A stretch of DNA of 42,500 nt from Phormidesmis priestleyi Ana (GTDB lineage Bacteria > Cyanobacteriota > Cyanobacteriia > Phormidesmidales > Phormidesmidaceae). Positions 29,253 to 32,865 of the stretch are shown here, in pieces (position 1 is the stretch's first letter; the number at the start of each line of letters is the position of its first letter). The stretch spans positions 1 through 42,500 of the forward strand of contig LJZR01000035.1 of assembly GCA_001314865.1 (NCBI GenBank), read 5' to 3'. The translations under genes were made by a program, and so were the position numbers. The notes below the pieces were generated by a model that did not search any database, was not told the DNA's origin, and saw only the letters and a list, made by a program, of their open reading frames with translations.

Positions 29253-29278
29253 CGGGCTATTAAAACGGGCTGTTAAAA
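29253..29278. repeat. 13-bp duplication across the outer-membrane protein stop codon
   Basis: CGGGCTATTAAAA is followed by CGGGCTGTTAAAA. The complement of 29273-29275 in the second copy is the real stop TAA; the other copy places a further TAA out of frame. Confidence 0.88.
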
Positions 29279-29764
29279 CTGATAGCCAACCCCGCCTTGA
29301 ATCGCTGTATTGGTATCACCCCCAATCGGGACGATGGCATTGCCGTAAAACACAATTCTGTTTCTGCTTTGGGTGTAGTCAATGCCGGGTTGAATCACAA
29401 ACGCGGTACCATCGCCCATGACCGACCCTTCGCTCGCAAAGGCGACGCCTGCACCGACATATATTTCGGTATTAAAATTCAGCGGATAGTCGTAGGAAAT
29501 TGTGGGTACAAAAGCAGATCCCTCACCCAAGAAAGCCGCCCCGCGAATGGAGATAGGCGCTTCCAAAATGTTGTAGCGGCCATTGATAGCAACGCCGATT
29601 TCACCATCGCCCAGAGCAGGGCCGATGCCGATATAGCTGCCGTAAGCTGCTTGGGCTTGAGCGGGTGACTGAAGTGAAAAAGCGATCGCACAACCGCCTA
29701 GTGCTAATCCAGCCCAGCTTAAAAGCCGACTTTTAAAATGAGTGATCATTAAAGTAGTGATCAT
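29273..29764 (-). CDS. Small outer-membrane beta-barrel protein
   Basis: 163 residues from the ATG at 29764, chosen because AGGAG lies 7 bases before it; a GTG five codons upstream would overlap that site. Residues 12-38 form a signal peptide (LSWAGLALGGCAIAFSLQSPAQAQA). The mature part is a run of alternating, glycine-rich amphipathic strands (YGSYIGIGPAL, GEIGVAINGRYNI, TEIYVGAGVAFASE, AIQGGVGYQF) and ends in phenylalanine, the usual outer-membrane insertion signal. It is probably an eight-stranded barrel. No named family. The first nine bases after the start recur 15 bases on (ATGATCACT twice), giving two possible Met starts. Confidence 0.72.
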   Translation of the reverse strand: MITTLMITHFKSRLLSWAGLALGGCAIAFSLQSPAQAQAAYGSYIGIGPALGDGEIGVAINGRYNILEAPISIRGAAFLGEGSAFVPTISYDYPLNFNTEIYVGAGVAFASEGSVMGDGTAFVIQPGIDYTQSRNRIVFYGNAIVPIGGDTNTAIQGGVGYQF

Positions 29765-29780
29765 TTGCAAACTCCTCACA
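29765..29780 (-). promoter_or_regulatory. Shine-Dalgarno matching the Yfr1 sRNA motif
   Basis: The mRNA reads TGTGAGGAGT ending 6 bases before the ATG. This is the exact complement of ten bases of the conserved unpaired Yfr1 sequence ACUCCUCACAC. Yfr1 is known to repress outer-membrane porin mRNAs in marine cyanobacteria by masking this kind of site. Confidence 0.5.
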
Positions 29781-29838
29781 GAACTACTAATCAGAACTAC
29801 CAGTCAGTACGAATGAAAGGCGTAATATCGCCTAAATA

Positions 29839-29873
29839 TCAGCCGATACAGTACTTAGTACTGTATCGGCTGA
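29839..29873. promoter_or_regulatory. Perfect 16-bp inverted repeat with 3-base loop
   Basis: Arms TCAGCCGATACAGTAC and GTACTGTATCGGCTGA surround TTA. It has no T run on either side, so it is not a standard terminator. It lies 75 bp upstream of the outer-membrane protein start and could be a leader hairpin or a dimer-binding site. Confidence 0.7.
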
Positions 29874-30281
29874 ATACAGTGGCAGCTGAATATTGTGTAG
29901 ATAATAACTCACCACGGACATAATAATCGGGCGCATAATAGCACATGCCGCGCAGATCGCGAGGTCAAGCCTATGTTAACGAGCATTCACGATTTCGGAA
30001 GAAAAATCTTGGAAGGACACCCTCAGAAGGAAAACGCATCAAGATTGTTTGAAATCGCAGGCACTTTTAAGTATATTTCCGGGCTTATTGAAGAATCCGC
30101 ATAATTTTCTTTCAAAATATGTCAGCGATTTTAGTGAGTTAACACGTTCCTTACATTTGGCTTTGGGCATTCTTCATATAGTTCTTTATCGTCTCTGCTG
30201 TACAGCACTTCTGTTGTATTGCTTGTTGTATCGCTTTTATTTTGTTTTAGCTTATTTCCTTTGGGTGAATCCATTTCTCAT

Positions 30282-30335
30282 TCATGGTTCTCATGGTTCT
30301 CATGGTTCTCATGGTTCTCATGGTTCTCATGGTTC
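30282..30335. repeat. Six-copy 9-bp tandem array
   Basis: TCATGGTTC repeated six times without mismatch in the spacer before the VCBS/peptidase gene. Perfect identity suggests a recent and probably unstable expansion. Confidence 0.95.
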
Positions 30336-30546: not shown

Positions 30547-32865
30547 ATGTTTGATGAAAAGTCAGTTTTGAGCGCTCGTGATGCGGCGCTCACAGTTAGT
30601 AGCGACATGGCTAGGCCCGATCCGTATGGATTGGATATCAACGGCGATCGCCATCCTGACATTCTCTGGCACAATCCAACCTCTGGAGAAAATGTCCTAT
30701 GGTATATGGACGGCAAAAAGGGTTCAGAGTACAGCGCGTCAGTCACTATCGACCCTATGAGCGGCGAGTGGCAAATCAAAAGTGCGCTCGATTTTGACCT
30801 AGATGGTCATCAGGATTTGCTATGGCGCAACGAAGTAACTGGTCAAAATGAAGTTTGGTTTATGGGGGGCGACAGAGGGCGCGATCGCCTGAGTAAACAA
30901 GAGATTGCAGGCATCGGTAGCGACTGGGAGATTTCAGGCGGTGCAGACTTTAACCGCGATGGTAGAGTTGACTTGCTGTGGCGAAACCAGGCAACCGGCG
31001 AAAATGAAGTTTGGTTTATGGGCGGCACGCGCGGCACAGACATCGCATCTAAAGGCGCGATCAGAACGCTGCATGCAGGCTGGGAAGTGGGCGGTATCGC
31101 TGACTTTGACCGAGATGGCCACGCCGATATTGTGTGGCGTCATCAGCAGGGTAGAAATGCAATTTGGCTGCTAAATGGTGAACAGGGTACGAATGTAAAA
31201 GATGGAAAAGAGTTGAACAATGTCGGTGGCGCATGGGAAATGCGGGGCGCAGCCGATTTTAACCAGGATGGTACGCCTGATATTTTTTGGCACAATGGCT
31301 CAACGGGTAAAAGCGCTATTTGGTACATGACGGGTGCAACCGGCAATCAGATCAAAGATGGCGATGTCATGCCTTGGACCGACACAACTCGAACGCCGTT
31401 GGTGAGCGGTTGGGGTTCACAAGCGACTGCTGTTAGGCCCGTTGTCTCTCCACCTAATTCGCCAGTGGCTGAAATTCCAACCATTGACAGCCCGACCAAT
31501 GAAACTCCAACAACAGAACCTGAAAGTCCCCTCCCTTTAGTCGGCGGAAACTCTGACGAGCCTGGATTCGATATCCAGTTTGACTATCGCTTTGATAACT
31601 TAAATTGGTTTGACAGCCAGAAAAGAGCCGCGCTAGAAGCTGCCGCTGAGGTTTGGGAAGCCATTATTCTAGATGACTTTCAGGCGATCAAAGCAGGCAC
31701 GACCGTTCATGCCTCTCATCCAACTTCGGGGAGTGTTGAAGCATTTCAGCTAGATTACGATATTGATGACATTGTGGTGTTTCTCTATGCTAACGACATG
31801 GGCGGGCCAGGTGGCAAGCTCGCTGAAGCAGGGGCTACGACTTATAAGGGCGATCGCAATACAACTACTGTTTTCCAACCCTGGCTGGGGGAAATGGAGT
31901 TTGATATCAGCGAACTCTGGTATGTCAACGCCAGCCTAAGCGAGACGGTGGTTGTTCCAGCTACGCAGCCCGATTTTCTCTCAGTTGCGGTTCACGAACT
32001 CGGTCATATTCTTGGAATCTCTTCTTCTTTGCCTGCTTTTAGGTCTTTAATTAATAGCCAGGGTCAGTTTATCGGTCCCGCTGCAAGCGCTCTCAACAAC
32101 GGTAATCCCATTCCGTTAGACACTGTCGGATCTCATATCAGAGATAATTTTGAGATACCTGGTCTGGGCGAAAATTCTTTAGATCCTACGATCAGAAAAG
32201 GCGATAGAAAGCTACTGACCCGTTTAGATGCGGCTTTGCTTGACGATATTGGCTATACCATTGACTATTCTTCTTTAAAGCCTGTTCCTAAAGTAGATTC
32301 TCTGGCAGTTGTAAAAGACGGTCAAACGGTGACGAAACTACAAGTTGGTGAACGCTACGAGCTGAAATGGGACGACAATTTTTCTGGTGCTGTGAAGATT
32401 GACCTGTATGAAGGCAGCAGGTTTATCCGAACGATTGAGAGTTCAACGGCTAGCGATGGCTCTTTTGACTGGCTGGCCCCGGCTGATTTAGCGGCGAGCG
32501 ATCGCTTCTACCGCTTTAAGGTGAGCAGTGTAGATGACAGCAGATTTCATAGCTTTAGTGATTTTCCCTTCACTATTCAGGCCCAGTCTTTTATCTCCAA
32601 CAGCACCTTTAACGACACCACGCTCAAAATTGGTAATCTGTACACCCTCGTTTGGAATGACAACCTGAGCGAAACGATCAAAATTGATCTCTATAAAGGT
32701 GATCAATACATGCGCACACTCACGGCCTCAACCATGAGCGACGGCAGCTACGAGTGGCGCGTTCCCAGCTTTACCCCACCTGGCAGCGACTACCGCCTCA
32801 AGCTCACTAGCCGTAATGATGCCAGCATCTACGACTTTAGCCCCATCTTTACCGTTCACGCCTAA
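30547..32865 (+). CDS. Large VCBS-repeat / zinc metallopeptidase / Ig-like protein
   Basis: 772 residues, mosaic. (1) About 25-295: five FG-GAP/VCBS-type repeats, each with a calcium-loop pattern (DINGDRHPD, DFDLDGHQD, DFNRDGRVD, DFDRDGHAD, DFNQDGTPD). (2) 300-340: Pro/Thr linker. (3) About 345-580: metzincin-like peptidase with HELGHILGIS starting at H483; the usual third histidine is absent at the metzincin spacing, but H530 (GSHIRD) could be a distant ligand. (4) About 590-680 and 690-772: two repeats of a Kre9/KNH-like Ig fold (YELKWDDNFSGAVKIDLYEG, YTLVWNDNLSETIKIDLYKG). There is no signal peptide, so if exported it would need a non-Sec route such as type I secretion. It converges on ppc. 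Confidence 0.8.
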   Translation: MFDEKSVLSARDAALTVSSDMARPDPYGLDINGDRHPDILWHNPTSGENVLWYMDGKKGSEYSASVTIDPMSGEWQIKSALDFDLDGHQDLLWRNEVTGQNEVWFMGGDRGRDRLSKQEIAGIGSDWEISGGADFNRDGRVDLLWRNQATGENEVWFMGGTRGTDIASKGAIRTLHAGWEVGGIADFDRDGHADIVWRHQQGRNAIWLLNGEQGTNVKDGKELNNVGGAWEMRGAADFNQDGTPDIFWHNGSTGKSAIWYMTGATGNQIKDGDVMPWTDTTRTPLVSGWGSQATAVRPVVSPPNSPVAEIPTIDSPTNETPTTEPESPLPLVGGNSDEPGFDIQFDYRFDNLNWFDSQKRAALEAAAEVWEAIILDDFQAIKAGTTVHASHPTSGSVEAFQLDYDIDDIVVFLYANDMGGPGGKLAEAGATTYKGDRNTTTVFQPWLGEMEFDISELWYVNASLSETVVVPATQPDFLSVAVHELGHILGISSSLPAFRSLINSQGQFIGPAASALNNGNPIPLDTVGSHIRDNFEIPGLGENSLDPTIRKGDRKLLTRLDAALLDDIGYTIDYSSLKPVPKVDSLAVVKDGQTVTKLQVGERYELKWDDNFSGAVKIDLYEGSRFIRTIESSTASDGSFDWLAPADLAASDRFYRFKVSSVDDSRFHSFSDFPFTIQAQSFISNSTFNDTTLKIGNLYTLVWNDNLSETIKIDLYKGDQYMRTLTASTMSDGSYEWRVPSFTPPGSDYRLKLTSRNDASIYDFSPIFTVHA

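Follow-up and report, generated by a model that had tools for sequence, protein, structure and literature searches.

Few cyanobacterial sRNAs are as conserved as Yfr1, whose targets have been studied mainly in Prochlorococcus and Nostoc in the work that we found. The porin mRNAs PMM1119 and PMM1121 of Prochlorococcus MED4 pair with the same Yfr1 core through their 5' UTRs, and a PMM1121 reporter is reported to be repressed 4.7-fold by Yfr1 in E. coli (PMC6778093). Yfr1 of Nostoc PCC 7120 governs an envelope regulon with validated targets including Omp85 (alr2269), an OprB-like protein (alr4550), and a porin (alr0834); in E. coli, Yfr1 represses ten mRNAs, alr2269 and alr4550 among them (PMC6974561). 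Most Yfr1 sites in Nostoc lie in the translation initiation region, and repression through hindered ribosome access is argued there, the cases of mraY and murC being explained by a covered ribosome-binding site (PMC6974561). A caution should be noted, in that blocking of the Shine-Dalgarno (SD) by cyanobacterial sRNAs may be less established than thought, and SDs are not over-represented in Prochlorococcus (PMC6778093).

The MED4 targets are porins, whereas the predicted target described here is a small eight-stranded barrel of a Phormidesmis/Leptolyngbya-like organism. Small barrels are targets of sRNAs in enterobacteria, in the pairs MicA-OmpA, CyaR-OmpX, and RybB-OmpW, where the sRNA likewise covers the initiation region of the mRNA for an eight-stranded outer-membrane protein. 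The enterobacterial sRNAs are unrelated to Yfr1, and the parallel is one of function, not of homology. Hfq dependence and sigma-E control are not claimed for the barrel gene.

The barrel gene, its ribosome-binding site and Yfr1

The window, i.e. the whole stretch of 42,500 nucleotides that was analysed, carries the barrel gene and its leader on the minus strand (Table 1). The ATG (29764-29762) lies 6 nt downstream of TGTGAGGAGT, and the minus strand around the start contains TTCTGTGAGGAGTTTGCAAATG. The ten-base Yfr1 complement over the SD of the barrel gene is confirmed, just as the earlier note had read it from the letters. The leader complements ten of the 11 bases of the Yfr1 core; the 11th needs G, and the leader has C. 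TGTGAGGAGT occurs once in the window, against 0.06 copies expected from shuffles, and is present in 6 of 100 shuffled sequences.

Table 1. Features around the start of the barrel gene in the window
Feature	Positions	Strand	Remarks
Gene for the 163-aa small outer-membrane beta-barrel	29273..29764	-	Signal-like N-terminus, eight strands, C-terminal Phe
Shine-Dalgarno AGGAG inside TGTGAGGAGT	29772..29776	-	7 nt between AGGAG and ATG
TGTGAGGAGT, predicted Yfr1 pairing site	29771..29780	-	Ten-base exact complement of the Yfr1 core ACUCCUCACA
Perfect 17-bp inverted repeat, predicted 5' leader	29839..29873	-	Apparently specific to this genome
GTTATTAT, putative -10	29901..29908	-	Inferred from alignment and a pattern check

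A GTG at 29779, listed as an in-frame start, is probably not the real start, because the equivalent GTG meets a stop after three to five codons in the relatives L010, L012, and L014 (leaders inspected by eye).

The protein had been taken for a small outer-membrane barrel from its sequence, and the structural model agrees. An AlphaFold model from 17 sequences consists of an N-terminal helix and eight strands. Its mean pLDDT is 84.5, and averages over ten residues lie at 88-97 from residue 41 onward. OmpA and OmpX are matched in Foldseek (best E 2.6e-5), and VIA-align gives Z scores of 16.1 to OmpW (8qxp) and 15.2 to OmpA (1qjp) at 17-18% identity. The N-terminal helix followed by PAQAQA looks signal-like by eye, and 80 of the 89 family proteins listed, this one included, end in Phe. 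The modelled fold supports an outer-membrane barrel. This fold is common to eight-stranded barrels of the OmpW/OmpA/OmpX type, but at the sequence level the protein stays below the gathering cut-off of Pfam OMP_b-brl (PF13505; 12.1 versus 28.7 bits) and has no match in NCBIfam. A PDB sequence search with the family profile returned two acetyltransferases (E 0.22 and 0.24), which are not believed.

Yfr1, which the earlier note proposed to locate elsewhere in the genome, is present. The genome of the window (5.93 Mb, 136 contigs, 98.8% complete) contains one strong Yfr1 gene (RF01116; 52.2 bits, cut-off 38) with an intact ACUCCUCACAC core, and the core is unpaired in an open stretch between two hairpins. 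Since the core is exact, the barrel leader can form ten perfect base pairs with Yfr1. The neighbours of this yfr1 are an obgE-type GTPase gene on one side and an IMP dehydrogenase gene on the other; yfr1 homologues are described as lying mostly between guaB and trxA (PMC6778093). Yfr1 is found in 109 of 115 genomes of relatives, including all seven genomes of the genus.

The genome has a second copy of ACTCCTCACACC (ACUCCUCACACC) at G000:C128:54039-54049 (locus L008, minus strand, about 1520-1440), followed by a terminator-like hairpin (GGCATTGC...GCAATGCC) and T8, possibly a Yfr10-like sRNA that has the core of Yfr1. The genus has further copies of the 11-mer (four copies in three of six relatives). 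This raises the question of whether the site is read mainly by such an RNA with the same core instead of by Yfr1. The second ACUCCUCACACC with its hairpin and T8 favours that reading, as does MED4, where Yfr1 and Yfr10 have the motif in common and partly distinct targets (PMC6778093). However, the C128 element does not appear to be conserved in the genus, no look-alike being seen by eye among the other 11-mer loci, whereas Yfr1 occurs in all seven genus genomes. We regard this alternative as highly improbable.

A search with RF01701 gave one sub-threshold match (37.2 versus 41 bits), a Cyano-1 element with GAGTGTGAGGAGCGAAC at L179 (G000:C21:48380-48447), which we take to be of the Yfr2 type. 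Its duplex with the Yfr1 core is calculated at about -25.8 kcal/mol, and the element is a possible Yfr1 sponge. The search with RF01702 gave no match, and its controls were also silent. Yfr2 is described as antagonising Yfr1 on PMM1121 (PMC6778093).

Conservation of the site and the leader

Among named organisms, Phormidesmis and Leptolyngbya are the nearest relatives. In the leaders of the genus, GTGAGGA is kept in seven of seven genomes and TGTGAGGA in six of seven. G001, G002, and G005 have AGGAA in place of AGGAGT and retain TGTG, which leaves only eight paired bases. The TGTG extension is thus better kept in the genus than the GT of AGGAGT. Among near leaders, G009 has GGTGTGAGGA, G011 has GGTGTGAGGAGT, and both G016 and G024 have TGTGAGGAGT. 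We counted columns over 11 leaders, namely the genus with G009, G016, G024, and G011, which were picked after GTGAGGA had been seen there; the TGTGAGGA columns are kept in 10-11 of the 11 and the following GT in 7 and 8, and the majorities in columns -24 to -5 are 4-6 of 10-11. G017 and G014, which are of similar identity and have TGAGGAGT, are outside this column count and inside the set of 78 orthologues described below. The leaders of the neighbour gene herA, anchored on the BLAST start and not on a chosen start codon, have no such conserved block by eye, though the HerA proteins are 83-93% identical.

Relatives of the barrel protein are found in 85 of the 115 genomes. For the leader counts, which leave out L026 (start not found), we used 78 orthologues; 11 more distant loci (L086, L089-L098) were set aside by eye as likely paralogues, and further, mostly weaker, family matches are likewise outside the set. 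Two of the set-aside loci, L090 and L091 (in G001 and G002), are a second, more distant barrel-like gene with TTGTGAGGA before the start, a possible Yfr1 target. Against the complement of the longer open Yfr1 region (UUC-core-CACAC), 53 of the 78 orthologues have a run of at least 8 and 25 have shorter runs. By genus, the median run is at least 8 in 19 of 33 genera, and the site is weaker or absent in the other 14. Among control genes bearing AGGA, only one of 89 reaches a run of 8, and this is a false ORF antisense to yfr1; the comparison of genera with controls (Fisher p 1.7e-12) is only a guide, as related genera are not independent. The median duplex energy is -17.8 kcal/mol for the orthologue leaders versus -7.9 kcal/mol for 57 AGGA-bearing controls of the window's own genome. 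In some genera the leader retains TGAGGAGTGA(A), whose pairing partner is the UUC that flanks the core. Little or nothing of the site is kept in other genera, e.g. g16, g33, g36, and g47. Judged from these alignments, conservation of the predicted site is strong among close relatives and becomes patchy with distance. The expectation in the earlier note, that homologous leaders would retain the complement beyond AGGAG, stands for the genus and is less well borne out outside the near clade, where many leaders have only TGAGGAGT or less.

These counts bear on the simplest alternative, a plain strong SD whose match with Yfr1 is fortuitous since the core resembles an anti-SD. AGGAG is a normal SD, raw genomic motif counts lie near those of the control (see below), and many distant orthologues retain only TGAGGAGT or AAGGAGT, all of which would fit such an SD. 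However, the TGTG that is kept so well in the genus lies outside the SD, and a run of 8 is nearly confined to the orthologues, as the 89 AGGA-bearing controls indicate. Furthermore, when the 4-mers before AGGA are compared by genus, TGTG, the Yfr1 complement, is the commonest (seven genera), and in 15 genera the three bases before AGGA are GTG. A plain SD is in our judgement unlikely. Whether site loss tracks Yfr1 loss was also considered and dropped, because the orthologues in Yfr1-less genomes are too few and the assemblies are drafts; three of the 78 orthologues are in genomes with no Yfr1 match (runs of 8, 5, and 4), and elsewhere 52 of 75 have a run of at least 8.

Six of the 12 leaders examined, those of G009 and of five relatives within the genus, have the pattern TTGAC-N17/18-TATTAC upstream of the site, and in those six relatives the site would therefore lie in the transcript. 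The window's own genome and the five other leaders tested have no match to the pattern. The GTTATTAT block is kept in the window leader, but no TTGA -35 was found; if this block is the -10, the leader would be about 130 nt long and would contain a large hairpin that only this genome has. The leader region has a folding z-score of -5.2. Outside this leader the genome has no copy of the 15-mer arm of the inverted repeat, and the repeat is absent by eye from the leaders of relatives.

In the fetched flanks of 15 near loci (some genomes counted twice), herA is a neighbour in 14 and ppc in 12. The gap between ppc and the barrel gene is about 0.1-0.3 kb in L011, L015, L016, and L017 and about 1.3 kb in L014, and no ppc is found within 1.5 kb in L012 and L013. 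In the window the two genes are about 3 kb apart, with an FG-GAP/matrixin gene (30547-32865) between them; a 9-nt tandem repeat (GGTTCTCAT) lies upstream of the latter gene at 30282-30335. Since the -35 is unrecognisable in the window, an insertion may have changed the barrel promoter.

Chance, pairing energy and matching sites in the same genome

We scored 245 genes from the window and about 295 kb more of the genome, using a simple ORF caller that chooses starts by SD, so that some control genes are false ORFs. Within 25 nt of the start, the longest run in the barrel leader is 10, and none of the other 244 genes has a run of at least 8 there (one reaches 7 and nine reach 6). The best accessible duplex of the barrel site, in region -20 to -7, is about -12.4 kcal/mol and ranks 4th of 245; the Omp85 gene is first (-16.0), and G/U-rich sites are second and third. 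A simpler ranking that uses only hybridisation energy places the barrel gene 6th. In its predicted fold, the leader pairs part of the site with itself, at a cost of about 5 kcal/mol.

TGTGAGGAGT is not over-represented genome-wide (7 copies in 5.93 Mb versus 5 for the backward control). One of the seven copies is yfr1 itself, one lies in the Omp85 leader, and only the window copy is followed by a long ORF at the spacing usual for an SD. TGTGAGGA-N3..11-ATG occurs 17 times in the genome versus 15 for the permuted GTTGAGGA, a weak excess. These counts, the energy ranks of 4th and 6th, and the partial pairing in the leader count against the barrel gene as a Yfr1 target, as do the short runs in 25 of the 78 orthologues and the eight-base pairing in G001, G002, and G005.

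On inspection, five of the 17 occurrences were judged to be at plausible gene starts, leaving out L181, which is an ORF of 113 aa, and L187, where the start falls within a longer ORF. The five are two OprB genes, the window barrel, a universal stress protein gene, and a polyketide synthase gene, in which the motif falls in the end of the upstream ORF; three of the five thus encode outer-membrane barrels. Among the 15 rows of the permuted control (GTTG), of which L203 and L206 are unresolved, two of the 13 resolved occurrences are plausible, and neither is barrel-like by eye. The universal stress protein gene (PF00582; L183, G000:C33:70674) has TGTGAGGA at its SD and is a candidate for a further Yfr1 target.

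The positions of the sites on the envelope genes should be noted. The Omp85 gene (PF01103) has UGUGAGGAGUGA at -39 to -28, and the two OprB genes (PF04966) have GGUGUGAGGA (-13.3 kcal/mol) and AGUGUGUGUGAGGA (-16.7 kcal/mol) at their SDs; for the second of these, the anchor in the duplex calculation is one base off the ATG and positions are shifted by one. The Yfr1 site of Nostoc alr2269 is likewise reported to lie farther upstream than most (PMC6974561). By motif and position, the genes of this genome that belong to the families of validated Yfr1 targets have similar predicted sites, and the barrel gene can be grouped with them on this ground.

The same positions bear on another possibility, that GTGAGGA works without an sRNA, either as a leader element that binds a protein or enhances translation or as an alternative GTG start. 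A short conserved block adjoining the start, with a GTG in frame in the window, would be in keeping with it, but in the three relatives mentioned above a stop soon follows the GTG by eye. A matching element is also present in the two OprB leaders and, for Omp85, at a distance upstream of the start where an SD enhancer is not expected to act. We give this possibility hardly any probability.

Predicted control by Yfr1 and its meaning

Both partners occur in one genome and are complementary, the complement is conserved beyond the SD, and counterparts of known targets carry sites. From these observations on sequence, we consider it very probable that the barrel gene is a post-transcriptional target of Yfr1 repressed through SD pairing, and the original proposal of a Yfr1 target at this gene is strengthened by the presence of Yfr1 and by the conservation beyond the SD. 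The unpaired Yfr1 core (ACUCCUCACA) would pair with UGUGAGGAGU, spanning the SD, and this pairing would block 30S binding and repress synthesis of the small barrel. Covering of the ribosome-binding site is most likely the step by which Yfr1 would repress barrel translation. Control of the barrel would run alongside that of the cell's own Omp85 and OprB porins, and repression may be relieved when an RNA of the Yfr2 type sequesters Yfr1. We infer pairing in the cell, repression as its sign, and relief by Yfr2 from the sequences.

The small-barrel family is not named as a Nostoc Yfr1 target in the sections of PMC6974561 consulted, and no Yfr1 target from this family was found in the Yfr1 literature searched. 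The family is a well-supported predicted addition to the known Yfr1 envelope regulon. The sites on the small-barrel family, Omp85, and two OprB genes support outer-membrane composition as a common theme of Yfr1, for which the barrel leader offers a compact reporter target. A wider reading, held tentatively and with slightly more doubt than belief, is that in many cyanobacterial genera Yfr1 commands an envelope regulon of ancient origin, through which the Omp85 insertion machine is kept in step with its barrel clients, both the porins and a hitherto unassigned family of small OmpW/OmpA-like barrels. Such a regulon, if real, would parallel by convergence the sRNA network on small barrels in enterobacteria. 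Yfr1 control of the barrel gene would add a new protein family to the known regulatory network.
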